From assembly GCA_030668485.1 (NCBI GenBank), contig DAOUTW010000012.1, forward strand, positions 1 to 64,000: a stretch of DNA of 64,000 nt. The letters run 5' to 3'. A program made the position numbers and the translations under genes. Of the stretch, positions 50,288 through 63,685 are shown piece after piece (position 1 is the stretch's first letter; each line of letters opens with the position of its first letter). This DNA is from Candidatus Zixiibacteriota bacterium (GTDB lineage: Bacteria; Zixibacteria; MSB-5A5; GN15; JAAZOE01). The notes beneath the pieces are model-generated. The model made no database searches. It saw only the letters and a program-made list of their open reading frames with translations, and was not told where the DNA came from.

Positions 50288-50311
50288 ATAAATTTGCTGC
50301 CCCAATAACTT

Positions 50312-50345
50312 CATGTGGGCGGCAGACGCCCTCGTCTGCCCCAGC
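50312..50345. repeat. Dispersed intergenic hairpin (GTGGGCGG...GTCTGCCCC type)
   Basis: GGCAGACG (50321-50328) pairs with CGTCTGCC (50333-50340) around the same CCCT loop seen in the hairpin arrays near 1.1-1.4 kb. A similar CATGTGGGCGG...GTCTGCCCCAGC segment lies at 55519-55562. Confidence 0.55.
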
Positions 50346-50453
50346 TCGGGTGGCCCGCCATTTATTCCCGTTACGGCAGGTCTTTATCCGCCCATGCAGA
50401 TTGTCACCCGCCGCCATCAGTAACGCCTCAGGCAATACGGCAATAAATACCGC

Positions 50454-50482
50454 TTGACACTTATCACAATACTTGATAGATT
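50454..50482 (+). promoter_or_regulatory. Sigma-70 promoter ahead of the lipoprotein gene
   Basis: TTGACA (50454-50459), 17 nt, TAGATT (50477-50482). The next gene starts at 50673, giving a leader of about 180 nt. Apart from this and the hairpin repeat, nothing coding is evident in 50288-50672. Confidence 0.5.
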
Positions 50483-50672
50483 AAATATAGTTAATGGCAT
50501 GTTGGCATAAACAACTCAGGCATTTCAAAAATTACTAGAGCATAAGTGTCGACTGTTGGTATCTGCTCTGGGAGGGTAGTAAATCGGCTGAATTTAATTC
50601 TACTTTTCAATCTTGAATTTAAAAAAAGAGTAGTTCGGAATTGTTCCGGATTGCCAAACACGGGAGGGTTTT

Positions 50673-51572
50673 ATGAGGATGTACAAGTTATCAATTACGT
50701 TTGCTCTAATCGGTATTCTTATTGCCTTATTGATGGGGTGTGACAGGACTGAATCGCCCGCCTCACCATCAAAGGTGGTTTACACCGGGAGTTCGGAAAA
50801 GGGAATAGGCCCGCCCATTATCCCAATGCCGATATTTACAACCTACTTGCCCAACACGGCAATGATTCAGGTCTGGGAGGCCGACTATATCGGCGGCAAG
50901 ATGGTGATGGAGCTTGACTATCTTCAGGCTCATGAAGAGCAGGAATCGGGTGACATGATAATGAAGGTCACTCCGGATTTTTGTAGTGTTGAGCTATGCA
51001 ATACTGCTGGAGTTCCATTCTATTCTTATACCATTACAGAAGATGGGGGCGTCAATACAACTACAATCTGGTATCAGGATGGAGATTATAGTTATACCTA
51101 TATTGCAGAAAGTGATGGTTCGTATCATCAGGAAGCGTCGGCTGGTGCAACCTCCGATTATATCGAATTCGCCAGCTATGAGGAAATGGAATTGGCCTAT
51201 TCTCTGTATTTGGACATCATCGTTGAGGGGAATGGAAATCAATCGAGCCTGCCTCCGTATGAGGCACAGTTGTTAATCGACCTCGTAGCCTGGGTGGATT
51301 ATCTGGATTCTATTGGAGAGCCGGACTTCACGGTGGCAATCGAAACCGGCTTACTGCTGTTAGAGGACGAAACCTATTTAGCCTTTCTGGATAACAATTT
51401 TGGCGATCAAATCGAGCCATTTAGGGGTATGTTCTGCGACTTCTACCGCGGCATTGATGATATATGTCGTGCAGTAATACGTGCTGGTGAAATAGGGCAG
51501 CTAGATCTTGATGACATATATACATGTACTGCGGCTGGTATTGGAACGATATTATGTAGCCTTTGGCCCTAA
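50673..51572 (+). CDS. Lipoprotein of unknown function
   Basis: ATG 50673 with GGGAGGG ahead. The 299-residue protein has a lipoprotein leader (MYKLSITFALIGILIALLMGCDR, lipobox LMGC). The mature part is acidic, with strands rich in Tyr and Thr (VPFYSYTITEDGGVNTTTIWYQDGDYSYTYI), and has four late Cys residues (GMFCDFYRG, DICRAV, YTCTAAG, ILCSLWP) that could form disulphides. I do not recognise a family. It lies at the left border of the accessory-looking region, well separated from dnaJ and from the radical SAM gene. Confidence 0.7.
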   Translation: MRMYKLSITFALIGILIALLMGCDRTESPASPSKVVYTGSSEKGIGPPIIPMPIFTTYLPNTAMIQVWEADYIGGKMVMELDYLQAHEEQESGDMIMKVTPDFCSVELCNTAGVPFYSYTITEDGGVNTTTIWYQDGDYSYTYIAESDGSYHQEASAGATSDYIEFASYEEMELAYSLYLDIIVEGNGNQSSLPPYEAQLLIDLVAWVDYLDSIGEPDFTVAIETGLLLLEDETYLAFLDNNFGDQIEPFRGMFCDFYRGIDDICRAVIRAGEIGQLDLDDIYTCTAAGIGTILCSLWP

Positions 51573-51594
51573 CCATAGTAATTACTGACTGGTG

Positions 51595-51631
51595 ACCCAT
51601 CCGCCATTTGTTTGCCGAATGGCGGGTGGGT
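51595..51631 (+). terminator. Long hairpin after the lipoprotein gene
   Basis: ACCCATCCGCCATT (51595-51608) pairs with AATGGCGGGTGGGT (51618-51631), one G-T wobble, loop of 9 nt. A probable terminator or mRNA-stabilising stem without a T-run. Confidence 0.45.
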
Positions 51632-51687
51632 TCCCGCTTTCCCCAATATTTACACGGTGCCATCTACTTAGCCAACTGAGCCTGTAG

Positions 51688-51737
51688 CCCGGGAGCCCTG
51701 CCGAAGGTCCTGAGCTAATGCGAAGGGTGCTCCCGGG
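51688..51737. repeat. Dispersed element fragment with CCCGGGAGC inverted repeat
   Basis: CCCGGGAGC (51688-51696) is inverted at 51729-51737. Between them GGTCCTGAGCTAATGCGA repeats exactly a segment at 1566-1583 in the left-hand repeat region. The remainder of 51573-51924 shows no gene. Confidence 0.55.
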
Positions 51738-51924
51738 AATCGTAAGGTGGGGTACAAAGTATTTTGAGTGGCAGTCCAAAAAGTGATTGCGCAGTTATAA
51801 ATACCGCGTATTATACACTATTCGTTGATGTTCAGCATCATGGGGTAATTTCGAGTTCGAGGGTAGTCTATTTAAAATTGGATAAATATCAGAGGTGAAT
51901 GCAATATTAACATAGGGGTGACTC

Positions 51925-54063
51925 GTGGCCAAAGAAGGCAAAGCAAAAAAATACAAAATAATCACTGACTTTGGCGATTCTGAAGTAAGGGCAAAGTCGA
52001 AAGATAACCTACCTAAATATTTTCGCGAATGGTCATCTGTTAGTCTAATACCGCCATTGAGACAGAAAAAATGGAATCAGTCCATTCGCCGAGTAAATGT
52101 GTTAGGCTATCCGCCATTGGACATTTATTCAGAATGGCTAATGGATTTTGCTTCAATAAGCGCCTGTCAATTGGACAGGACTGACTGGGAAAACTTTAGG
52201 CGAAGTATACTGATTCACCTTCCCAAATGCCCACTATACTGCTGGTATTGCTTCAATGATGCGTGGCCTACAAAAAAGGAAGCGAAGGCTGAAGATGATA
52301 TACAGTGTGATAAAATAGTCAGGGCTGAGGAAATCACCGTTTCAAAGCTTCTAGTCGAGTTCAAGAAACTCCATAATGAAAGCCATGATTTCGAAGGGAG
52401 GCAGTACAATCTGTTGCGAATTTCAGGTGGTGAACCATTCACGGAACCTGAATTCATTGAGGAACTCGCACGGGGATTTGGAGAAATATTTGAAAAGACA
52501 GAAGCATTTCTTTGGGTAGATACGAATCTAATACCTTTCACAAAAGGTATAAAGCCCGAACATGAGAAAGCGATTGACGCCATAAAATCATTAGGGAATC
52601 AGGCCGCAATTCATTGCTGCCTTCACGGGGGCGATAACGAATCATACGAGCAAAATACGCTTGCCAAGGTCGACATAAAGGGAATCTATAAAGCGATAGA
52701 AGGAATTTTTAAGAAAAACGTCAATCTTTATCCCAGGATCAACCCCATTGGTCTGACTCCATCACTTGCCAAAGATATCTTTAAAAGTCTGAGCAAGATT
52801 GACGAATCTTTGCCCGCAAAGACGTATTTGGGTCCGGTGGAAATCCATTATGACGCGGCAATAGATCGTATGCTATTATTCCATGGCAAGAATCCTAAAT
52901 GTAATCCGAGGACCAAGCCCTCTCCAAAGGTGAACACTAATCCTCCTGCTTACCACCCACCAAATGCGGTGATCTACGAATGGAATAGGTTAATGAAGCG
53001 AGCCTATGGATTCGGTTACGCTGTTGTCCCCCGCCATCTGGATGTAAAATTCATTGATAAAAATTGGATTGAAAAAGTTGATGTAACCGGATGCAAACAA
53101 AAGTGGGAAGAAATATTTATTGTCACGAAAGGGTGGCGTAAAGAGGTGTATGCACGAAAGCTGCTCGAGTTATTGGCCTTGCCAACTGGGGCAAAAATTG
53201 AAATAGAATATGAGAATAGGTGGGTCGATCCAACCCTCCTTGCCCACATCTACGCAGCCCCCGATTATTATCAAGATAGAAAATTCAATATTTTATTCGT
53301 CGCTTCATTTCAAGATGAATATCGCCTTCCACCAGTAATGCCATTGCGATGGGGAACTTTGCGCAAAGTTCGCACGGAGCATCTTTCCGAAGATCAGTCA
53401 GTTCTATTCGAGGCAACTGTTGATGAATATGCCGTCAATTTCGAGAAATGCATTGGGGCGTCAAAAGAATTGGATGTGGCCGAGAAACTGGCGGAATATA
53501 TTGGATTGAATAATCTGCCGTATCCCAATCCCATTGGGAATTTCTGCCAATTAATTGGAGTTGAGTTAAAACAGGACATAAAAAATGGCCAGCCCCAAGG
53601 ATCGTTCAAAGCTACGGTTGTAAATGTGAGCAATAAAACTCGCAACAAAAATTACGCCAAGTCGCTGAAAGACATATACTACCGCATAAAAAGTATTTCC
53701 TGTGCAAACCCGACCGCGGGAAAGGATAAAGAAGTTCCTCTAAGTGATAGTGGTGATTTAGAGTTGCACGAAAATGACGAAATTGCCATTGAAATTGAGT
53801 CCTGTAATCCACACTTCGGGGATATTGGCTATCCAGACGTTCATGAGGCACAACTTCAAATTCTGTCAAGTCCGCCTGACAAAATTCAAATATCCCCGGA
53901 ACGAATAGCTTTATCCAAATATGGAAGCAATACGATTAGGATAAAATTCCCCAGAGAAGGCTATTTCGAAGGTGAGATTATCGTGCGTCCGGAATCTACT
54001 GAAATCCGTCTCGCTGAGATTAGTATTCCCTTCAAGGTAAATGTGGAGAAAAATGATGAGTGA
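51925..54063 (+). CDS. Divergent radical SAM protein with a large C-terminal extension
   Basis: GTG start at 51925 behind AGGGGTG. The 712-residue protein has a radical SAM cluster motif CPLYCWYC (Cys102, Cys106, Cys109) and LLRISGGEP with GGEP at 167-170, then LWVDTNLIPF, so residues about 95-330 form the SAM barrel. After it come a region of about 250 residues without a familiar domain and a beta-rich Ig-like C-terminus (ISPERIALSKYGSNTIRIKFP...FEGEIIVRPESTEI). The substrate is unknown. Its last 11 nt overlap a HerA-like ATPase gene, so the two proteins are likely partners. Base composition looks more AT-rich than neighbours, suggesting transfer. Confidence 0.8.
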   Translation: MAKEGKAKKYKIITDFGDSEVRAKSKDNLPKYFREWSSVSLIPPLRQKKWNQSIRRVNVLGYPPLDIYSEWLMDFASISACQLDRTDWENFRRSILIHLPKCPLYCWYCFNDAWPTKKEAKAEDDIQCDKIVRAEEITVSKLLVEFKKLHNESHDFEGRQYNLLRISGGEPFTEPEFIEELARGFGEIFEKTEAFLWVDTNLIPFTKGIKPEHEKAIDAIKSLGNQAAIHCCLHGGDNESYEQNTLAKVDIKGIYKAIEGIFKKNVNLYPRINPIGLTPSLAKDIFKSLSKIDESLPAKTYLGPVEIHYDAAIDRMLLFHGKNPKCNPRTKPSPKVNTNPPAYHPPNAVIYEWNRLMKRAYGFGYAVVPRHLDVKFIDKNWIEKVDVTGCKQKWEEIFIVTKGWRKEVYARKLLELLALPTGAKIEIEYENRWVDPTLLAHIYAAPDYYQDRKFNILFVASFQDEYRLPPVMPLRWGTLRKVRTEHLSEDQSVLFEATVDEYAVNFEKCIGASKELDVAEKLAEYIGLNNLPYPNPIGNFCQLIGVELKQDIKNGQPQGSFKATVVNVSNKTRNKNYAKSLKDIYYRIKSISCANPTAGKDKEVPLSDSGDLELHENDEIAIEIESCNPHFGDIGYPDVHEAQLQILSSPPDKIQISPERIALSKYGSNTIRIKFPREGYFEGEIIVRPESTEIRLAEISIPFKVNVEKNDE

Positions 54064-55324
54064 ATTATCTTTGGGCGAAACTGAAGACGACAAAAAGAAA
54101 TTGAAGTGTTTTACAGTCAAGTGTAAGGATTTTTGCACTCATACATTTTTGACAGGTCAGTCAGGATCCGGGAAAACGGAAATTCTTGCCAGAATTATTG
54201 AAGAACTAATTCTTCACGGTTGTGGCAACATCCTTTTGTTTGATTTCAATTATGAATTTATGCATCTCAAAGAAGTCAATAATGATGCATTTAATAAACG
54301 CAAAACAAAATGGATAAAGCAGAATTGCGCGGGGAATGTTCGGAATGAGTTTAATGATGAGTGGAACAAGTTGAACAATGAATTTGAAATACTTGAATCC
54401 AAAGATTTAAAAATACACTACGATGATATCTGTGAAGATTTCTTGATGAAATTGATGGATATAGATGGCAAGAATCATCCTGGGGCTGCCTGGCTTGTGG
54501 ATTTGATCAAGAAAGATCGCGATTTTAGTGAGCAGATTGGGAATGCAGAGAGTTTCAAAAAATTAATCGACAATTTTAGACGGTGGAGCGAGGGACGAAC
54601 ATCGAAGGATGAGCAATCCAAGGTATCCCAAAATCTGTTTAATCAAATTCAACGATTCGCTGATCCTCTTGACTTTACTCGGCTCCGGAACGGCGCCGAG
54701 AAAGTTGTGAACATCGCAAATATTGAATGGGGCAATACTGTAGATAAGAAAAACTCTATCAGTGAGGAGTTTTTGTCAGGGCTATTCGATGACAAACGGC
54801 TGATTTCTTTGGATATGTTAGGTTTTCGATATGATAATCGATTCGTTAGAGACCTTATCGCTCTGCAGGCTCTTAATAATATTTGGAAAATCGCCCGTAA
54901 AAGGTACATTGAAGCGTCTGAAAAAGGTAAAGGCGAGGAGATAACGCCCCCTATCTTCATCGTAATTGATGAAGCGCACAATATCGTTCCGGGGGAGTCA
55001 GCAGATACTCTATTCGCTAAAGAGATTTCTGAGATTATCAGGACAATTGCCGCAGAAGGCAGGAAATTTAAAATATTCCTGATTCTAATATCTCAACGTC
55101 CGGATAAAATCCATCGTTCTGTGATCTCGGAATGCCAGAATTATATTATTATGAAATCAATTCCACCGACCATTGAAAAACTACACGATTTGTTGCCTAG
55201 TAATCTAAATTCCGAACTTGAAAGGCTAATAAATTATAAGAAAGGCGATGCGCTATATTACGGTAAGTTTACAAAATATGATCATAAAAAAGTTAGTGGT
55301 GATATCCGCCGTACGAAGAAATAG
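54053..55324 (+). CDS. HerA/FtsK-superfamily P-loop ATPase
   Basis: ATG 54053 with GGAG at 54044-54047, inside the end of the radical SAM gene (54041 and 54056 are alternatives). The 423-residue protein has Walker A GQSGSGKT (35-42), NILLFDFNYEF after it, Walker B with DEAH near 306-309 (FIVIDEAHNIVPG), and ILISQRPDKIHRSVISECQNYIIMKS, the sensor-like segment of HerA-type ATPases. It lacks the N-terminal HAS barrel of the window's own HerA (30098) and has a charged helical insert at about 80-190. Probably a ring-forming motor on DNA or another polymer. With the upstream gene it forms an isolated two-gene unit. Confidence 0.82.
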   Translation: MMSELSLGETEDDKKKLKCFTVKCKDFCTHTFLTGQSGSGKTEILARIIEELILHGCGNILLFDFNYEFMHLKEVNNDAFNKRKTKWIKQNCAGNVRNEFNDEWNKLNNEFEILESKDLKIHYDDICEDFLMKLMDIDGKNHPGAAWLVDLIKKDRDFSEQIGNAESFKKLIDNFRRWSEGRTSKDEQSKVSQNLFNQIQRFADPLDFTRLRNGAEKVVNIANIEWGNTVDKKNSISEEFLSGLFDDKRLISLDMLGFRYDNRFVRDLIALQALNNIWKIARKRYIEASEKGKGEEITPPIFIVIDEAHNIVPGESADTLFAKEISEIIRTIAAEGRKFKIFLILISQRPDKIHRSVISECQNYIIMKSIPPTIEKLHDLLPSNLNSELERLINYKKGDALYYGKFTKYDHKKVSGDIRRTKK

Positions 55325-55518
55325 AGGCGGATTTTCGTGGTTGGCGTACGTCCCCGTGCCCCAACAATCGGGCTGGCGGACGAGCAATATCCACCGGGGG
55401 CGATTGCTTTTATTGCAGTTAACACCGCATATGTTTTTTGACTGAAATATCATCAGGCTGTAATCCAATCACTTAAATACTGAGTAGCCCGCCCAGGGTT
55501 CGTCGTGGCAAATGTCGG

Positions 55519-55562
55519 GCCATGTGGGCGGTACCCGCCGCGGCGGGCTGGTCTGCCCCAGC
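55519..55562. repeat. Dispersed intergenic repeat (CATGTGGGCGG...GTCTGCCCC)
   Basis: It shares its borders with 50310-50345. The interior contains CCCGCC-GC-GGCGGG. It lies between the ATPase gene and dispersed element copy 2. Confidence 0.5.
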
Positions 55563-55705
55563 GATTACCATAGCAACCGATTCAGATCATCCACGCGACA
55601 GCCAAAAGGTGGCCCCTGCCACCTGCCTGCAAAATCAACATAGAATCGCTGTAGATCCTGTCCCTTTCCCAATTATTGAACCTGATCATTCAAGGAGTAA
55701 TACGG

Positions 55706-55810
55706 ATGCACGTAAACGAAATGAAAATCCCATCGAAGGCCAAAACAGGGAAAAACCTTAATTATGAAAAACGAACCCAAAACCATTGCGATACAAGCAT
55801 ATCAGCCTGA
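55706..55810 (+). CDS. Small ORF (34 codons) in dispersed element copy 2
   Basis: AAGGAGT precedes ATG 55706. The peptide begins MHVNEMKIPSKAKTGKN. The counterpart in copy 1 (1448) shares the Shine-Dalgarno and the residues E-M-K at positions 5-7, then diverges. A second overlapping ORF of 28 codons starts at 55764. Coding status unproven. Confidence 0.3.
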   Translation: MHVNEMKIPSKAKTGKNLNYEKRTQNHCDTSISA

Positions 55811-55852
55811 GACAGAGCCTGAAATGATGCCCAAAAAAGAAAAACTTTAAAA

Positions 55853-55918
55853 ATGAGCGACCAAAGCCAAATCCCTTACAATCCCAAGCGCGACAAACCA
55901 TTATGGGACATAAAATGA
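55853..55918 (+). CDS. Conserved 21-codon ORF, copy 2
   Basis: It begins MSDQSQIPYNPK and ends LWDIK-stop; same length and same start and stop as the ORF at 1669. It is followed 5 nt later by the palindrome 55924-55946. See the copy-1 entry for alternatives. Confidence 0.3.
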   Translation: MSDQSQIPYNPKRDKPLWDIK

Positions 55919-55923
55919 CGGCG

Positions 55924-55946
55924 GGTGTATGTAAAATACATACACC
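55924..55946. terminator. Perfect palindrome, copy 2
   Basis: GGTGTATGT and ACATACACC around AAAAT, identical in core to 1740-1762. Confidence 0.5.
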
Positions 55947-55970
55947 TGCCTGTTTCGTGATGGATTCTTG

Positions 55971-56023
55971 TGCCCGGCATATGTCCACATCTGCCGGGCA
56001 ATCGGGCACATGTGGACATGTGC
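55971..56023. repeat. Pair of strong inverted repeats
   Basis: TGCCCGGCA (55971-55979) is inverted as TGCCGGGCA (55992-56000), directly followed by GCACATGT-GG-ACATGTGC (56006-56023). Rough outer complementarity (CACCTGCCTGTTTCGTG near 55943 with CACAAAGACAGGTG near 56028) would close them into one large structure. The rest of 55325-56211 shows no gene beyond the small ORFs listed. Confidence 0.5.
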
Positions 56024-56211
56024 TACGCACAAAGACAGGTGCCCCGTGGTCGTCAGACCTGGGAATATAGCCGGAGTTTTATGCTACGCTAAGCTGTTAC
56101 GTCTCTGTGCATTATCTATACAAAATTGCGTCTAATAATCGGTAAAGATATGAGGCCTCCGGTCGAATCTATTGGTAAGTGCACCTTTTTTAATCGATTA
56201 AGGAGGCAGTA

Positions 56212-56817
56212 ATGAAGAAGTGTATGTATGTGCTCGTGGCTATGTTTGTTCTGACTTCGGTCGCCTCGGCCCAGAACCCTAATCCGTTCAATCTGTACCT
56301 CGGCGGAGCCATCTCGATTCCGAATTCGCCGGCTGAATTCGCCGATAGTTACAAAACCGGATTACACGGTTTTGTCGGTGTTGGCTATTCAGTGATGCCG
56401 AATTTGCAGGCGATTGGCAAGATCGAATTCAATCGTTTCCCACTTGATCTCGGATCAGATCAGTCCTTCCTGGGTGAAGATATTACAGGTGGGCATAATA
56501 ATATGTGGATGTTCGGTGTCGACGGTCGTTATACCTTCAGTCTTCCGTCCGCTCCGATCAAACCGTTCCTTCTTGGCGGCGTCGGCCTCGCCCGGATATC
56601 GCCGACTCAATTGGAAGGCACCAGCGATCTGGTCGCCAGTCTGAATGAATTCCAGCCGGATACTCAAAATAAAGTTTATTTCAATGTCGGCGCCGGTATC
56701 GAACTGAAGGCGGGACCGATGTGGCAGGTGTTTGCCCAGGTTCGCTATGTCTCCGTCGCTACCGAGGGGGACCCCGCAACATTTATCCCGGTCAGCCTTG
56801 GTCTCAAGTTCTTCTAA
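56212..56817 (+). CDS. Outer-membrane beta-barrel protein (OmpW/opacity-like)
   Basis: AAGGAGGCAG precedes ATG 56212. The 201-residue protein has a signal peptide (to about residue 20, ASAQ), then eight-strand-barrel-like sequence: FNLYLGGAISIP, GLHGFVGVGYSVMPNLQAIGKIEFNRF, MWMFGVDGRYTF, KPFLLGGVGLARI, VYFNVGAGIELKAGPMWQVFAQVRYV, ending PVSLGLKFF with a terminal Phe. Function unknown. It converges on the PEP-CTERM operon and shares a bidirectional terminator with it. Confidence 0.82.
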   Translation: MKKCMYVLVAMFVLTSVASAQNPNPFNLYLGGAISIPNSPAEFADSYKTGLHGFVGVGYSVMPNLQAIGKIEFNRFPLDLGSDQSFLGEDITGGHNNMWMFGVDGRYTFSLPSAPIKPFLLGGVGLARISPTQLEGTSDLVASLNEFQPDTQNKVYFNVGAGIELKAGPMWQVFAQVRYVSVATEGDPATFIPVSLGLKFF

Positions 56818-56848
56818 AGCAGACTATACGGTATTGTTACTCCAATAA

Positions 56849-56878
56849 AAAAAGGGCGCCTCTTTGAGACGCCCTTTA
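56849..56878. terminator. Bidirectional terminator between the barrel gene and the PEP-CTERM operon
   Basis: An AAAGGGCG...CGCCCTTT stem (56851-56858 with 56870-56877), with A-run on one side and TTTAAATTT on the other. The same hairpin follows the other PEP-CTERM genes. Confidence 0.75.
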
Positions 56879-56906
56879 AATTTGTGCTCTTGTTACGATC
56901 TTGCTA

Positions 56907-57548
56907 TTATTTCATGCGCTTGCGGAATCTGGCACCCATACCGATCAATCCGAGGCCGAGGAGGGCCATAGTGGTCGGTTCCGGAACGGCGGAGGGGCTG
57001 TAAACGCCGCTGGCATCGCCGGACATATTGTCGACAATCCACCAATTACTTTCACTCTCCATAGTGACATAGGCGATATCGCTCATCCCCGTTGCCACCG
57101 TCAGATAAAACATTCCGTTTTCATTACCGTCCTGATACCTCAAATTGCTCGGGCCGGAAATATAACTGAGTAGATTATCATTGATATCGTAGGCTTTAAG
57201 CGTAAAGGTCATGTATGTACTATAACCGGTGGTAAAAAAAGAAGCATCGGCGTTGTCAAAATCGATACGGCCCATTTGCATAAAGGAGCCAGCAACCCCA
57301 ACATAGCCCTCCATCCAATACTGTCCGGTCGACCATTCGAGGCCAAGATCATAGCTGGAGAAGCCCCAGTTATCCGTGGTTGCATCGGCGTAAGACATGT
57401 CGCTGGAAAAATTCAGGCCGGGAACCCCCGATTGAATCTGTTCGAGGTCATGTCCAAGCCCCCACTCGAAGTCGAGGAACCAGGCATGGCTGGTGCCGGT
57501 GAAGGCGAACAAAGCGACCATTAAAACCAGTATCTTTGCCGTTCTCAT
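56907..57548 (-). CDS. PEP-CTERM sorting-domain protein, paralogue A1
   Basis: A 213-residue protein: signal peptide MRTAKILVLMVALFAFTGTSHA, then AWFLDFEWGLGHD, a beta-rich domain with GRIDFDNADASFFTTGYS, AYDINDNLLSYISGPSNLRY and WWIVDNMSGDASG, and the C-terminal sorting signal VPEPTTM, a hydrophobic helix and RFRKRMK. PEP-CTERM tails are recognised by an exosortase (not in this window) that processes and anchors or releases the protein, usually with exopolysaccharide. Last gene of a three-gene minus-strand operon; 39-nt gap from A2. Confidence 0.92.
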   Translation of the reverse strand: MRTAKILVLMVALFAFTGTSHAWFLDFEWGLGHDLEQIQSGVPGLNFSSDMSYADATTDNWGFSSYDLGLEWSTGQYWMEGYVGVAGSFMQMGRIDFDNADASFFTTGYSTYMTFTLKAYDINDNLLSYISGPSNLRYQDGNENGMFYLTVATGMSDIAYVTMESESNWWIVDNMSGDASGVYSPSAVPEPTTMALLGLGLIGMGARFRKRMK

Positions 57549-57587
57549 CGTGTAACCTCCAAATTTATTCTTTGTTGCAGCTTTATA

Positions 57588-58226
57588 CTATTTCATGCGT
57601 TTGCGGAGTCTGGCACCCATACCGATCAAGCCGAGGCCGAGGAGGGCCATTGTGGTCGGTTCGGGAATGGGGCTAGACACGCCACTGGCATCGCCGGACA
57701 TATTGTCAGCAATCCAACTATTACTACCTGTAGGACAACCCATAGTGACATAGGCAATATCGCTCATTCCCGTTGCCACCGTTAGATAACCCATTCCTGC
57801 ATCATTATCGTTTATATACCTCAAATTGCTTGGGCCGGTAACAAAACTGAGTAGATTATCATTGATATCGTAGGCTTCGAGGGTAAAGCTATAGAAGGAA
57901 CTATAACCGACGGTGAAAAAAGAAGCATCGGCGTTGTCAAAATCGATACGGCCTATTGCTGCGGAGGAAGTAACCCCAACATAGCCTTCGATCCAAAACT
58001 CTCCGAGATTCCACTCAAGACCAAGATCGTAGCTGGATGTATTCCATAAATCGCTCATAGCATCGAGGTAATACAATTCATCACCAAAGTCCATACCCGG
58101 GATACCCGATTGAATCAACTCATAGTTATGACCCAAGCCCCACTCGAAGTCGAGGAACCAGGCATGGCTGGTGCCTGCGAAGGCGAACAAGGCCACCATT
58201 AAAACCAGTATCTTTGCCGTTCTCAT
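57588..58226 (-). CDS. PEP-CTERM sorting-domain protein, paralogue A2
   Basis: 212 residues, closely similar to A1 and A3: the same signal peptide, AYDINDNLLSFVTGPSNLRY, IADNMSGDASG, IPEPTTM and RLRKRMK. Differences concentrate at residues about 35-85 and 140-170, the probable exposed loops. The gaps on both sides (39 nt) are almost identical in sequence, including the Shine-Dalgarno GGAGG and the start, showing tandem duplication of a unit of about 680 bp. Transcribed with A3 and A1. Confidence 0.92.
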   Translation of the reverse strand: MRTAKILVLMVALFAFAGTSHAWFLDFEWGLGHNYELIQSGIPGMDFGDELYYLDAMSDLWNTSSYDLGLEWNLGEFWIEGYVGVTSSAAIGRIDFDNADASFFTVGYSSFYSFTLEAYDINDNLLSFVTGPSNLRYINDNDAGMGYLTVATGMSDIAYVTMGCPTGSNSWIADNMSGDASGVSSPIPEPTTMALLGLGLIGMGARLRKRMK

Positions 58227-58265
58227 TGTGTAACCTCCAAATTTATTCTTTGTTGCAGCTTTATA

Positions 58266-58901
58266 CTATTTCATGCGTTTGCGGAGTCTGGCACCCATAC
58301 CGATCAAACCGAGGCCGAGAAGGGCCATAGTGGTCGGTTCCGGAATGGGGCTAGACACGCCACTGGCATCACCGGACATATTATCAACAATGCAATAATG
58401 ATCCCTACCATGCATCAAGACATAGGCAATATTGTTCGATCCCGTTGAAACAGTCAGATAGCCCATTCCTGCAGAGTTACCATCTGCATACCTCAAATTG
58501 CTCGGGCCGGAAACATAATTGAGTAGATTATCATTGATATCGTAGGCTTCTAGTGTAAAGCCTTCGTAGGCACTATAACCGGTGGTGAAAAAAGATGCAT
58601 CGGCGTTGGTAAAATCGATACGGCCGATTCCATCCGAGAGTGGAGCAACCCCAACATAACCTTCGATCCAATACTGTCCGGTTCCCCATTCGAGGCCAAG
58701 ATCGTAGCTGGAGAAGCCCCAATTGCCCGCGCTTGCGTCGCAGTATTGCGCACTATCGGAAAACGTCAGGCCGGGAATCTCCGATTGAATTCGCTCTCTG
58801 TTGTGTCCCACACCCCATTCGAAGTCGAGGAACCAGGCATGGCTGGTGCCGGTAAAGGCGAACAAAGCGACCATTAAAACCAATATCCTTGCCGTTTTCA
58901 T
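58266..58901 (-). CDS. PEP-CTERM sorting-domain protein, paralogue A3
   Basis: 211 residues, first gene of the three-gene operon. Signal peptide MKTARILVLMVALFAFTGTSHA, core AYDINDNLLNYVSGPSNLRY and CIVDNMSGDASG, tail IPEPTTM and RLRKRMK. GGAGG lies 7 nt before the ATG. A sigma-54 promoter is 62 nt upstream of the ATG (58978-58963). Probable surface or EPS-associated protein. Confidence 0.92.
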   Translation of the reverse strand: MKTARILVLMVALFAFTGTSHAWFLDFEWGVGHNRERIQSEIPGLTFSDSAQYCDASAGNWGFSSYDLGLEWGTGQYWIEGYVGVAPLSDGIGRIDFTNADASFFTTGYSAYEGFTLEAYDINDNLLNYVSGPSNLRYADGNSAGMGYLTVSTGSNNIAYVLMHGRDHYCIVDNMSGDASGVSSPIPEPTTMALLGLGLIGMGARLRKRMK

Positions 58902-58962
58902 TGTGTAACCTCCAAAATGACTCAGTAGTCAAAGCAGTTATTATGTAATTTATCTTAATTAT

Positions 58963-58978
58963 AGCAAGTGACGTACCA
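58963..58978 (-). promoter_or_regulatory. Sigma-54 promoter of the PEP-CTERM A operon
   Basis: On the minus strand TGGTACGTCACTTGCT, GG-N10-GC, matching TGGCACG-N4-TTGCT with one change. Start site predicted near 58952, about 50 nt before the ATG. Just upstream, CACGTTATTAACAG (58993-59006) resembles the GTTCA-N5-TGAAC motif. The interval to 59137 otherwise shows only a small hairpin near 59085-59103. Confidence 0.75.
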
Positions 58979-59137
58979 AAATGGATAACTTGCACGTTAT
59001 TAACAGGTTAACAAATATCACTTTTGCAAATTAGCATTATACGACCCCGATGTGTAGTAATAATGTACAGTGTGTCATGGCTAAGCCCTTTATATATAAG
59101 GGGCGGCGGCGAAATATGGGTATTTTGGGTAGAAAAA

Positions 59138-59162
59138 AAGGGCGTCTTTATGAGACGCCCTT
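59138..59162 (-). terminator. Terminator of PEP-CTERM B1
   Basis: AAGGGCGTCT (59138-59147) pairs with AGACGCCCTT (59153-59162), loop TTATG. The minus-strand transcript continues into a U-run. Confidence 0.8.
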
Positions 59163-59192
59163 CAAATTTGTGCTCTTGTTACGATCTTGATA

Positions 59193-59837
59193 CTATTTCA
59201 TGCGCTTGCGGAGTCTGGCACCCATACCGATCAAGCCGAGGCCGAGGAGGACCATGGTGGTCGGTTCGGGGATACCCGGGCTGTAGACGGCGGAAGCATC
59301 ACCGGACATATTGTCCAGGGTGAAAAAGTTGCCACCATCATGAACCAGAATGTAAGCGATATCGGAGGGCGCCGAGGCCACGGTTAGATAACCAATAGAA
59401 GTGCCGCCAGCACTCACTGTATTGGCCGGACCGGAAGCGATATCAAGAAGATTGTCACTGCCATCATAAGCTTCCAGGTAGAAAGTTGAAATAGAGCTGT
59501 ATCCGATGGTAAAAAAAGAACCGTCCTGATTCAGGAAGTCGATTCGACCGCTGCCCTGAGTAGTACCGAGCCAGGTACTGACATTGCCGCCTACAAAGTA
59601 GTTACCGCTGCCATAGACGTCTCCATTGTCGCTGGTGGCATTGTAACCGCCGGTGGTGATGTCCGCGTACATCCAGTCGTAACCGTCAGTGGTGGTGAAC
59701 TGCAGTCCCGGAACGCCGGTAGCCACGGTTCCACCATCATTGCCAAGGCCCCACTCGAAATCGAGGAACCAGGCTTGACTGGTGCCGGTAAGCGCAAAGA
59801 TCGCGATCACTAATACGAAGATCCGTGCGAGTTTCAT
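59193..59837 (-). CDS. PEP-CTERM sorting-domain protein, paralogue B1
   Basis: 214 residues: signal peptide MKLARIFVLVIAIFALTGTSQA, AWFLDFEWGLGND, then a B-type core (TVATGVPGLQFTTTDGYDWMY; GRIDFLNQDGSFFTIGYSS; AYDGSDNLLDIASGPAN; FTLDNMSGDASA), and tail IPEPTTM with hydrophobic helix and RLRKRMK. Same fold as the A proteins but a separate subgroup. Monocistronic with its own sigma-54 promoter, upstream sites and terminator. GGAGG precedes the ATG. Confidence 0.92.
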   Translation of the reverse strand: MKLARIFVLVIAIFALTGTSQAWFLDFEWGLGNDGGTVATGVPGLQFTTTDGYDWMYADITTGGYNATSDNGDVYGSGNYFVGGNVSTWLGTTQGSGRIDFLNQDGSFFTIGYSSISTFYLEAYDGSDNLLDIASGPANTVSAGGTSIGYLTVASAPSDIAYILVHDGGNFFTLDNMSGDASAVYSPGIPEPTTMVLLGLGLIGMGARLRKRMK

Positions 59838-59904
59838 AATTTAATCCTCCTGATTTGATTTTATGTTTGCCCTAATTTGTTTTCAAAAGAACATTAATCG
59901 TATT

Positions 59905-59920
59905 AGCAAGCGATGTGCCG
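59905..59920 (-). promoter_or_regulatory. Sigma-54 promoter of PEP-CTERM B1
   Basis: On the minus strand CGGCACATCGCTTGCT, with GG-N10-GC and TTGCT at -12; 67 nt before the ATG. Confidence 0.75.
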
Positions 59921-59983
59921 AGGTGTGTAAGGAGTAATAATGCAATAAGTTACACCAAACGCGACGGCATTGGAGGGATCGCT

Positions 59984-60102
59984 GGTGTCAAAAACATGTT
60001 TTGATAAGCGACACCGATTCACAGGGGAATAGATAAGAGTCATAGATTTCTTTGTAAAGCAACGTATTAGAAAGACTTCTTAAAGTGTTCATGTTTTGAA
60101 CA
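59984..60102. promoter_or_regulatory. Upstream activator sites of PEP-CTERM B1
   Basis: Two elements are kept at fixed distances from the sigma-54 box in all three B copies. The first is AAAACATGTTTT (59991-60002), framed here by GGTGTC (59984) and GACACC (60010). The second is TGTTCA-TGTTT-TGAACA (60086-60102), about 167 bp from the -24 box. Both contain CATGTTTTGA. Confidence 0.5.
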
Positions 60103-60239
60103 AGATATGATACGGGATGAAATTTCCACTCCCTTGTGCGGGTATTACGGGCTTCGGGAGCCCGTAAATACTGGATTCCTGCGAAAATAAATCAAGAAAC
60201 CGTTAAAAAATACAAATTGCAGCCTTTGAGGGGATAAAA

Positions 60240-60266
60240 AAAGGGCGTCTCTTTGAGACGCCCTTT
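60240..60266 (-). terminator. Terminator of PEP-CTERM B2
   Basis: AAGGGCGTCT (60241-60250) pairs with AGACGCCCTT (60256-60265); the A-rich stretch before it becomes a U-run on the minus strand. Confidence 0.8.
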
Positions 60267-60293
60267 AAATTTGTGCTTGTTACGATCTTGCTA

Positions 60294-60938
60294 CTATTTC
60301 ATGCGTTTGCGGAGTCTGGTACCCATACCGATCAAGCCGAGGCCGAGGAGGACCATGGTGGTCGGTTCGGGGATACCCGGGCTGTAGACAGCGGAAGCGT
60401 CACCGGACATATTGTCCAGGCCGAAGTAGTTACCATCATCATGTACCAGAATGTAAGCGATATCGGCTGCAGCGGAGTTCACGGTCAAATAACCGAGAGA
60501 AGTATAACCTTCCCATTGGGTATTGGCCGGGCCGGAGACTACATCAAGAAGATTGTCACTGCCGTCATAAGCTTCCAGGAAGAATTCCGAAGCGGAACTG
60601 TATCCGATGGTAAAGAAGGAACCATCCTGATTCAGAAAGTCGATTCGACCACTGCCCTGAGTAGTACCGAGCCATGTAAAGACATTGCCGCCCACATTGT
60701 AACGGCCGCCAAGATAAGTGTCGCCGTTGTCGCTGGTGACATTATAACCACCGGTGGTGATATCACCATACATCCAGTCGTAACCGTCAGTGGTGGTGAA
60801 CTGCAGTCCCGGAACGCCGGTAGCCACGGTTCCACCATCATTGCCAAGGCCCCACTCGAAATCGAGGAACCAGGCATGACTGGTGCCGGTCAGCGCAAAG
60901 ATCGCAACCACTAAAACGAAGATTCGTGCGAGTTTCAT
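60294..60938 (-). CDS. PEP-CTERM sorting-domain protein, paralogue B2
   Basis: The ATG at 60938 is chosen because GGAGG precedes it and the signal peptide MKLARIFVLVVAIFALTGTSHA starts there; the frame is open 16 codons further. 214 residues, nearly the same as B1 and B3 (GRIDFLNQDGSFFTIGYSSASEFFLEAYDGSDNLLDVVSGPANTQWEG; YFGLDNMSGDASA), tail IPEPTTM and RLRKRMK. Own sigma-54 promoter and terminator. Confidence 0.92.
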   Translation of the reverse strand: MKLARIFVLVVAIFALTGTSHAWFLDFEWGLGNDGGTVATGVPGLQFTTTDGYDWMYGDITTGGYNVTSDNGDTYLGGRYNVGGNVFTWLGTTQGSGRIDFLNQDGSFFTIGYSSASEFFLEAYDGSDNLLDVVSGPANTQWEGYTSLGYLTVNSAAADIAYILVHDDGNYFGLDNMSGDASAVYSPGIPEPTTMVLLGLGLIGMGTRLRKRMK

Positions 60939-61004
60939 GTTTAATCCTCCTAATTGGATTTTATATTTGCCATATTTTGTTTTCAAAAGAACATCAATAA
61001 TATT

Positions 61005-61020
61005 AGCAAGCGATGTGCCG
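61005..61020 (-). promoter_or_regulatory. Sigma-54 promoter of PEP-CTERM B2
   Basis: Minus-strand CGGCACATCGCTTGCT, identical to that of B1; 66 nt before the ATG. Confidence 0.75.
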
Positions 61021-61091
61021 AGGTGTGTAAGGAGTAATAATGCAATGAGTTATGCCAAGCGTGACGGCATTGGAGGGATGGCTGATGTTAG

Positions 61092-61203
61092 AAAACATGT
61101 TTTGATAAGCGACACCGATTCACAGGGGAATAGAGAAGAATCATAGATTCCTTTGTAAAACAACGTATTAGAGAGACTACTTAAAGTGTTCATGTTTTGA
61201 ACA
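61092..61203. promoter_or_regulatory. Upstream activator sites of PEP-CTERM B2
   Basis: AAAACATGTTTT at 61092-61103 with GACACC at 61111, and TGTTCA-TGTTT-TGAACA at 61187-61203, spaced as in B1. Confidence 0.5.
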
Positions 61204-61342
61204 AAGATATGATACGGGATGAAATCTCCACTCCCGCGTGTGGTATTATGGGCCTCCAGAGCCCGAAAATACTGGGTTCCGGCGAAAATAAATCAAGAAA
61301 TAGGCAAAAAAAATAAAAATTGCAGCATTTGAGGGGAAAGAA

Positions 61343-61370
61343 AAAGGGCACCTTAAATAAGACGCCCTTA
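61343..61370 (-). terminator. Weaker terminator of PEP-CTERM B3
   Basis: AAGGGC (61344-61349) pairs with GCCCTT (61364-61369). The stem is shorter than in B1 and B2 because the inner bases have diverged. Confidence 0.55.
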
Positions 61371-61398
61371 AATTTGTGATCTTGTTACGACTTTGCTA

Positions 61399-62043
61399 CT
61401 ATTTCATGCGCTTGCGGAGTCTGGCACCCATTCCGATCAAGCCAAGGCCGAGGAGGGCCATGGTGGTCGGTTCGGGGATACCCGGGCTGGAAACGGCGGA
61501 AGCGTCACCCGACATATTGTCGAGGCCGAAGTAGTTACCACCATCGTGCACCAGAATGTAAGCGATGTCGGCGGCACCGGAAGTCACGGTCAAATAGCCG
61601 AGAGAAGTGTAACCTTCCCACTGGGTATTGATCGGGCCAGTAGCAACATCAAGAAGATTGTCGCTGGCATCATAAGCTTCCAGGAAGAAAATGGAGGCCG
61701 AGCTGTAACCGATAGTGAAGAAGGAACCATCCTGATTCAGAAAGTCGATTCGACCGCTGCCCTGAGAAGTGCCGAGCCAGGTAAAGACATTGCCGCCCAC
61801 ATTGTAGCGGCCGGTGCCATAAACGTCGCCATTGTCGCTGGTGACATTATAACCACCGGTGGTGATATCACCGTACATCCAGTCATAACCGTCAGTGGTG
61901 GTGAACTGCAGTCCCGGAACGCCGGTAGCCACGGTTCCACCATTATTGCCAAGGCCCCACTCGAAATCGAGGAACCAGGCATGACTGGTGCCGGTCAGCG
62001 CAAAGATCGCAACCACTAAAACTAAGATCCGTGCTAGTTTCAT
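61399..62043 (-). CDS. PEP-CTERM sorting-domain protein, paralogue B3
   Basis: 214 residues, closest to B2: signal peptide MKLARILVLVVAIFALTGTSHA, GRIDFLNQDGSFFTIGYSSASIFFLEAYDASDNLLDVATGPINTQWEG, YFGLDNMSGDASA, tail IPEPTTM and RLRKRMK. Own sigma-54 promoter and upstream sites. The long antisense frames over B2 and B3 are by-products of their coding constraint. Confidence 0.92.
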   Translation of the reverse strand: MKLARILVLVVAIFALTGTSHAWFLDFEWGLGNNGGTVATGVPGLQFTTTDGYDWMYGDITTGGYNVTSDNGDVYGTGRYNVGGNVFTWLGTSQGSGRIDFLNQDGSFFTIGYSSASIFFLEAYDASDNLLDVATGPINTQWEGYTSLGYLTVTSGAADIAYILVHDGGNYFGLDNMSGDASAVSSPGIPEPTTMALLGLGLIGMGARLRKRMK

Positions 62044-62108
62044 GTTTAATTCTCCTAAATGGATTTTATGTTTACCGTTTTAAATTTCAAAAGAACAATT
62101 ATTTCATT

Positions 62109-62124
62109 AGCAAGCAATGTGCCG
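62109..62124 (-). promoter_or_regulatory. Sigma-54 promoter of PEP-CTERM B3
   Basis: Minus-strand CGGCACATTGCTTGCT, one base different from B1 and B2; 65 nt before the ATG. Confidence 0.75.
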
Positions 62125-62195
62125 AGAAGCGTAATGAGTTGTAATACAATAAGATACACCGTTTATGGTGGCTTCGGGCGGGTAATTTGCATTAA

Positions 62196-62307
62196 AAAAC
62201 ATGTTTTGATAAGCGACACCAATTTACTCGGGATTATCGGAAAAACAGATATGTGTATGTAAAACAATGCTTTATGAAGATTGTTTAAAGTGTTCACGAT
62301 TTGTACA
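62196..62307. promoter_or_regulatory. Upstream activator sites of PEP-CTERM B3
   Basis: AAAACATGTTTT at 62196-62207 with GACACC at 62215, and TGTTCA-CGATT-TGTACA at 62291-62307, same spacing to the sigma-54 box although the bases around have diverged. Confidence 0.5.
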
Positions 62308-62731
62308 CAGGAATAATGTAAGATGAAATCTACACTCCCGTCTATGATTTAATGGGCTTCCAGAGGGCGAAAATAATGGGATCAGGCTAAAAAAAACAAC
62401 AAATCGATAAATTTAAGATAATATTCACCTATGAAATGATGAATTATGCTATAAGCGAGTCGGTTTGCAGAATATTCCACACTCCGACCAACAGATAATT
62501 ACACACCTTCATTAGCAGCTAAAAGTTGAATTTGTCTATTCATGCCCCATATAACGGTGTTATCGAAGATATTGCCGCCTGGATCAAGTCCCGCCGACAA
62601 CTTCGTTAATCCCCATTCCTGCCCTTGATTTGTAGGGCGCAAATTTGTATATATGAAATTCGTGATAAGGCCCCGGTGGCGGCATAAGGCTGTCGGGATT
62701 GGGAGACTATGATATTTGAGGGCTTTGTGAT
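62308..62731. other. Intergenic stretch without recognisable features
   Basis: Between the outermost PEP-CTERM upstream site and the epimerase gene. I see no convincing gene, RNA or terminator; an 80-codon minus-strand frame here has no support. Confidence 0.5.
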
Positions 62732-63685
62732 ATGACAACAATATTGGTTACCGGTGCGGCGGGCCAGATCGGCTCGGAATTAGCAATCGCACTGCGCAAG
62801 AAATATGGCGAGGAACGGGTGGTAGCGACCGATATCAGGATGCCGACGGATGAGGCGCTCCGTGATTCGGGACCTTTTGAATCGCTCGATGTGCTTGATG
62901 AGAACCAGATCACAAGGGTAATGCAGCAATATAAAGTTGACACCATTTTTCACCTGGCGGCGATTCTGTCGGCTATTGGCGAAACCCGTCCGAATGTCGC
63001 CTGGCGGGTCAATATGGGCGGCCTGTATAATATGCTCGAGGCGGCCCGGCAATATAAATGCTCGATGTTTTTTCCCAGTTCGATCGGAGCTTTCGGGCCA
63101 TCGACGCCGATGGACGATACTCCGCAGGATACGATCATGCGTCCGGAGACGATGTATGGTGTGACCAAATTGTCCGGCGAACTGCTGTGCGATTATTATT
63201 TCCAGCGGTTCGGAGTCGATACTCGCGGCGTTCGTTTCCCCGGATTGATTTCGTATGAAACCGAGCCGGGCGGCGGTACCACCGATTATGCGGTGGAGAT
63301 ATTTTTTGAGGCGATCAAGCATCAGAAATATACCTGCTATCTCAGGGATGATTGTTCACTCGATATGATGTATATGCCGGATGCCATCAGGGCGATGATC
63401 GATTTGATGGAAGCCGATCCGAGCCGGCTGGTGCATCGCAACGCATTCAATATCACCGCCATGAGTTTTACTCCGGAAATACTGGCGGCGGAAATACGTA
63501 AATTCATACCGGATTTCGAAATCGGATATAATGTCGATCCGGTGCGGCAGAAAATCGCCGATTCGTGGCCCAATCGGATGGATGATTTGGCCGCTCGCGA
63601 GGAATGGAATTGGGCGCCTGAATATGATTTGCCCAGCATGACCAGTATAATGATTGAGGCTGTGAAGAAAAAATTTGAAGTTTAA
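62732..63685 (+). CDS. NAD-dependent epimerase-type L-threonine 3-dehydrogenase
   Basis: A 317-residue short-chain dehydrogenase: GAAGQIGSE at 8-16 (Rossmann GxxGxxG), IFHLAAILSA, FPSSIGAFGP, and YGVTK (catalytic Tyr and Lys near 142-146). RGVRFPGLISYETEPGGGTTDYAVEIFFEA is diagnostic of the short-chain L-threonine dehydrogenases related to UDP-galactose epimerase. It would oxidise L-threonine to 2-amino-3-ketobutyrate with NAD. A downstream partner (Kbl) is not seen; acpS follows 44 bp later. Confidence 0.85.
   Translation: MTTILVTGAAGQIGSELAIALRKKYGEERVVATDIRMPTDEALRDSGPFESLDVLDENQITRVMQQYKVDTIFHLAAILSAIGETRPNVAWRVNMGGLYNMLEAARQYKCSMFFPSSIGAFGPSTPMDDTPQDTIMRPETMYGVTKLSGELLCDYYFQRFGVDTRGVRFPGLISYETEPGGGTTDYAVEIFFEAIKHQKYTCYLRDDCSLDMMYMPDAIRAMIDLMEADPSRLVHRNAFNITAMSFTPEILAAEIRKFIPDFEIGYNVDPVRQKIADSWPNRMDDLAAREEWNWAPEYDLPSMTSIMIEAVKKKFEV

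Follow-up and report, generated by a model that had tools for sequence, protein, structure and literature searches.

The locus analysed here raises the question of whether a gene for a radical SAM protein and a gene for a HerA-type ATPase, which overlap on one strand of a Candidatus Zixiibacteriota genome, work together, and if so, whether they do so in defence. We address it on the whole stretch of DNA that was analysed, 64,000 nucleotides in length and called the window below, and on relatives of each protein in other genomes, plasmids and viral sequences. With low to moderate confidence, we conclude that the pair is an uncommon accessory unit, probably of a defence type and acting by modification of nucleotides or nucleic acids.

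The gene pair and its variable spot

The features of the locus are collected in Table 1. The radical SAM gene begins at GTG 51925, with GGGGTGA upstream of it, and ends at 54063. How far it overlaps the ATPase gene depends on the start of the latter. The overlap of 11 nt given in a preliminary description of this DNA, which was made from the sequence alone, holds for a start at ATG 54053, while it becomes 8 nt from ATG 54056 and 23 nt from the longest open reading frame. The AT-richness reported at the same time is confirmed by a GC content of 0.421 for the radical SAM gene and 0.379 for the ATPase gene against 0.480 for the window, and the GC3 values of the two genes, 0.41 and 0.40 respectively, lie below those of the window's other genes, which are mostly 0.48-0.63.

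Table 1. Coordinates of the gene pair, its motifs and the spot that holds it
Feature	Position	Strand	Basis or remark
Radical SAM protein, 712 aa	51925..54063	+	core ~93-307, C-terminal module ~370-712
CPLYCWYC, [4Fe-4S]/SAM binding motif, C102/C106/C109 (CX3CX2C)	52228..52251	+	sequence
GGEP motif of radical SAM core, residues 168-171	52426..52437	+	sequence
C-terminal part from residue 354, without named family	52984..54063	+	relative beside DruA in G095
Overlap of the two genes, 11 nt	54053..54063	+	sequence
HerA/FtsK-type ATPase, 427 aa (423 from ATG 54053)	54041..55324	+	DUF87, PADLOC HerA, mad8, motifs
Variable spot holding the pair, dnaJ to epimerase gene	50288..62731	.	empty in G004, other cargo in G001/G002

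The pair does form an isolated two-gene unit, as had been described. It is bordered by a gene for a lipoprotein-like product (judged by eye), a gene for an outer-membrane protein and an array of PEP-CTERM genes in tandem. This array, at 56907-62043, consists of six similar genes, both of the two scanned having the PEP-CTERM motif, and hairpin-like sequences as well as direct repeats, which reach 300 nt, lie between the genes. A 28-nt inverted repeat, 82% complementary and with 9 nt between its arms, is found downstream of the pair at 55968-56032. The earlier statement that the pair lies between dispersed repeats is true only in a weak sense: the element at about 51684-51738 is present, and the rest of the genome contains a single 85% copy of it, besides a few short stretches that match. 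The window contains no tRNA, and near the genes Rfam gave only microRNA families, all below their gathering scores and taken as chance. The pair does not lie among known defence genes, none of which was seen in the ten neighbours scanned.

Comparison with genomes of the same family reveals that the spot is not fixed. In one of them (G004), dnaJ is directly followed by a homologue of the epimerase gene that lies at 62732-63685 in the window, and the spot is empty. In the second (G002), the genes after dnaJ include a DUF2971 gene and an IS200-type transposase, and in the third (G001), the spot is occupied by a short gene together with a transposase of the integrase-core type. Variability thus extends over the whole 50.3-62.7 kb, which makes the pair accessory cargo. 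The same-strand overlap, the AT-rich composition and a spot that holds transposases and a DUF2971 gene in related genomes all argue for an acquired accessory unit.

The ATPase and the search for a second pair

Members of the HerA/FtsK clade are marked by Walker A and Walker B motifs, a sensor-1 glutamine at the end of strand 4 and an arginine just upstream (PMC10853773). All of these marks, including the glutamine and the upstream arginine, are found in the ATPase, which also matches DUF87 in Pfam (2.8e-9). The Walker A motif GQSGSGKT (residues 39-46, numbered from the longest reading frame) and the DEAH Walker B motif (310-313) are present as previously claimed for a HerA-superfamily ATPase, along with EGRK (339-342) and SQRP (351-354). 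Its best PADLOC matches are HerA (1.7e-26) and the Mad8 model of the MADS system (2.6e-23), likewise short with 314 positions and matched end to end over residues 33-423.

The nearest relative of this ATPase, P0004 of G034, can be aligned with it over almost the full protein at 23% identity, and a further relative of 502 aa occurs in G109. In the stretches read, neither has a radical SAM neighbour; the contig of G034 starts 538 nt upstream of the relative, and those 538 nt encode no radical SAM protein. A motif scan around further ATPase matches likewise revealed no radical SAM gene beside an ATPase. At the G034 locus (L019, 539-4824), the neighbour of the 537-aa relative is a convergently oriented gene whose 834-aa product has weak AAA matches.

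The key check proposed for this locus was whether the two genes stay adjacent across distant genomes. The search for relatives of the radical SAM protein covered three sets of genomes: 387 taken around the host, 194 around an archaeal genome and 179 from another phylum. Plasmids and phages were searched by tblastn, and viral contigs and GTDB genomes by pattern; these pattern scans have low sensitivity, those of genome contigs using exact peptide patterns. Neither the approximately 760 genomes nor the plasmids, phages or viral contigs yielded another radical SAM/ATPase pair, so that conservation of the pair is not supported. The 194 genomes around the archaeal genome gave no relatives of the radical SAM protein in a search run without a positive control, and the family may be common elsewhere. 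The open-licence papers searched hold no description of a radical SAM/HerA system. A pair seen once, with ATPase relatives that have no radical SAM neighbour, is what would be expected if two orphans, a radical SAM enzyme and a HerA-like ATPase, had been acquired as cargo and overlap by chance, with no shared function. We consider such a coincidence only slightly less likely than a joint defence-type function. Against it, the two frames overlap on one strand and have a similar AT-rich composition, and it is only this overlap and shared composition that link the two proteins.

The radical SAM protein and its plasmid relatives

The CX3CX2C and GGE motifs that characterize the core of the radical SAM superfamily are both found in the 712-residue protein, in the forms CPLYCWYC and GGEP noted previously. 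The Pfam Radical_SAM model matches residues 97-266 (3.2e-6) with a score of 27.9, slightly short of the curated cut-off of 29.5, and the assignment of the core is supported by alignment with the plasmid family described below. Comparison with NCBIfam gave no model above its cut-off, and no named family was found that covers the protein in full length. Prokaryotic viperin (pVip), likewise a radical SAM protein, was considered and rejected as its identity: the viperin models match very weakly (E 0.04 and 0.0079; 13.1 bits against a cut-off of 180), and the match is confined to the stretch from the cluster motif to GGEP. Matches in two further genomes (G327 and G068) are by eye HemN-like and glycyl-radical-activase-like proteins and were set aside as generic radical SAM matches.

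A closer family emerged from the 179 genomes of the other phylum, where proteins of 345-354 aa in G748 and G641 align with residues 157-322 and 157-301, respectively. The same family includes plasmid proteins of Nostoc, Aulosira, Tolypothrix and Microchaete, as well as those of Rhizobium and Roseovarius, which had initially turned up as weak matches. When compared by hhalign, a profile of six proteins of this family aligns with residues 93-307 over 183 columns, while a two-sequence profile of glycyl-radical-activase-like proteins covers just 75 columns, confined to the surroundings of the cluster and GGEP motifs. Both profiles are thin and their E-values similar, so the kinship is judged from the longer span and the common motifs rather than from the E-value. 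The family shares the core of residues 93-307, with CWYCF, GGxP, LWxDxNL and CxxGxDxxSxxxNTxA, at about 20-25% identity, but its members are only about 340 aa long and lack the C-terminal half of the window's protein. Since the alignment runs along its length, the radical SAM core is probably related to this unnamed family.

On plasmids of cyanobacteria and alphaproteobacteria, the family is part of a cassette with genes for HTH/XRE, DUF4186, radical SAM, DPPWY, ASCH and P-loop kinase proteins (loci L022, L023, L100, L101, L098 and L099), the DPPWY motif being by eye N6-adenine-methyltransferase-like. The cassette of G748 is reduced to HTH, DUF4186, radical SAM and kinase genes, with no DPPWY or ASCH gene between the last two. 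A genome report is the one paper in which both DUF4186 and radical SAM were found. Members of the family score weakly against viperin models, and a scan of viral contigs with the family gave no match. These partners, DUF4186, the kinase and others, differ from the HerA-type ATPase that accompanies the window's protein. The methyltransferase-like, ASCH and kinase genes beside the nearest radical SAM family suggest that modification rather than killing may be the task of the pair: the radical SAM enzyme would hypermodify the DNA or RNA of the host or element that carries it, the ATPase would serve as translocase, and the outcome would be self-marking or regulation. This appears unlikely, because genes for a methyltransferase, a kinase or an ASCH protein were not observed next to the window's pair. 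Nor do the DUF4186, HTH and kinase genes of the cassette flank it. Even if the pair does not act jointly, the analysis points to an unnamed radical SAM branch that is carried on plasmids of distant bacteria, beside enzymes of nucleic acids and nucleotides.

The C-terminal half had been described as unassigned, and indeed residues 330-712 are covered by no named family. The sole relative of the C-terminal module in the 387 genomes is P0003 of G095, with 21% identity over 112 aa, whose gene follows a DruA gene at a distance of 20 nt (PF14236, 2.5e-66; locus L017, 4671-6880). Unlike the window's protein, P0003 stands without a radical SAM domain and ends in hydrophobic, by eye probably membrane, segments. 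The role of the module cannot be defined from a single relative. Its profile has no match among PDB sequences, its scan of viral contigs was empty, and the possibility that it corresponds to the cassette's 430-aa DPPWY protein was tested and rejected. A structure predicted for the radical SAM protein from its single sequence had a mean pLDDT of 32.1, too low to be of use.

Peptide modification is common among radical SAM enzymes. A peptide-modifying (RiPP-type) enzyme with an ATPase partner would fit these common substrates, and there are profile matches to peptide-modifying enzymes, though generic and weak. We regard it as improbable, because the CX3CX2C motif is the sole cluster-like group among 13 cysteines in total, with no SPASM-like group after C109, and inspection by eye found no convincing precursor-peptide frame in the flanking gaps.

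A proposed joint function and known HerA-type systems

Our best explanation, to which we assign a probability of roughly 0.35, is a horizontally acquired two-gene accessory unit with a joint defence-type function. Its accessory position and the nature of its relatives speak for a conflict-type role rather than a housekeeping one, and the ATPase is best matched by defence models, HerA and Mad8. The explanation is also backed by the alignment of the core with a cassette family that scores weakly against viperin models and lies beside DPPWY, ASCH and kinase genes, and by the relative of the C-terminal module next to DruA. Counted against defence are the lack of a nuclease or other obvious killing domain in the pair, its absence from every other genome searched, the absence of known defence genes nearby and the missing HAS domain.

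We propose that the two genes may have been acquired together by horizontal transfer. The radical SAM protein would use one [4Fe-4S] cluster and SAM to generate the 5'-deoxyadenosyl radical, which could alter a nucleotide or a nucleic-acid base, and its C-terminal half may hold the substrate or the partner. A ring of the ATPase would load on or move DNA and switch on or feed the radical enzyme, as modelled on the HerA rings that drive SIR2 or DUF4297 partners. The net effect would most likely be protection against phage or plasmid DNA. We consider it quite unlikely, taken as a specific claim, that a HerA-type motor drives radical chemistry on DNA or nucleotides in a two-gene defence whose effector is a radical SAM enzyme instead of a nuclease or NADase.

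Among known systems, MADS shares only its Mad8 component with this locus: the ATPase alone matches a mad model among the 13 proteins scanned at 39.7-63.7 kb, which include no mad1-mad7, and no mad model matches the radical SAM protein. Two-gene HerA systems work as a ring ATPase plus an enzyme, and in HerA-DUF4297 the N-terminal HAS domain of HerA is the docking site of the partner (PMC12198126). This domain is absent from the window's ATPase, where only 38 residues precede Walker A and leave no room for an N-terminal HAS barrel. Any complex would thus differ from HerA-DUF4297, and the analogy is incomplete. A relative of the same class has a HerA-type ATPase gene beside a gene that is by eye SIR2-like (L074, 665-3453), probably a SIR2-HerA system. 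SIR2-HerA and HerA-DUF4297 likewise place an enzyme gene beside a HerA-type ATPase gene, but their partners are a SIR2 NADase or a nuclease, whereas the partner here is a radical SAM protein. Joint action of the pair would extend the known range of enzymes driven by HerA-type rings to radical chemistry.
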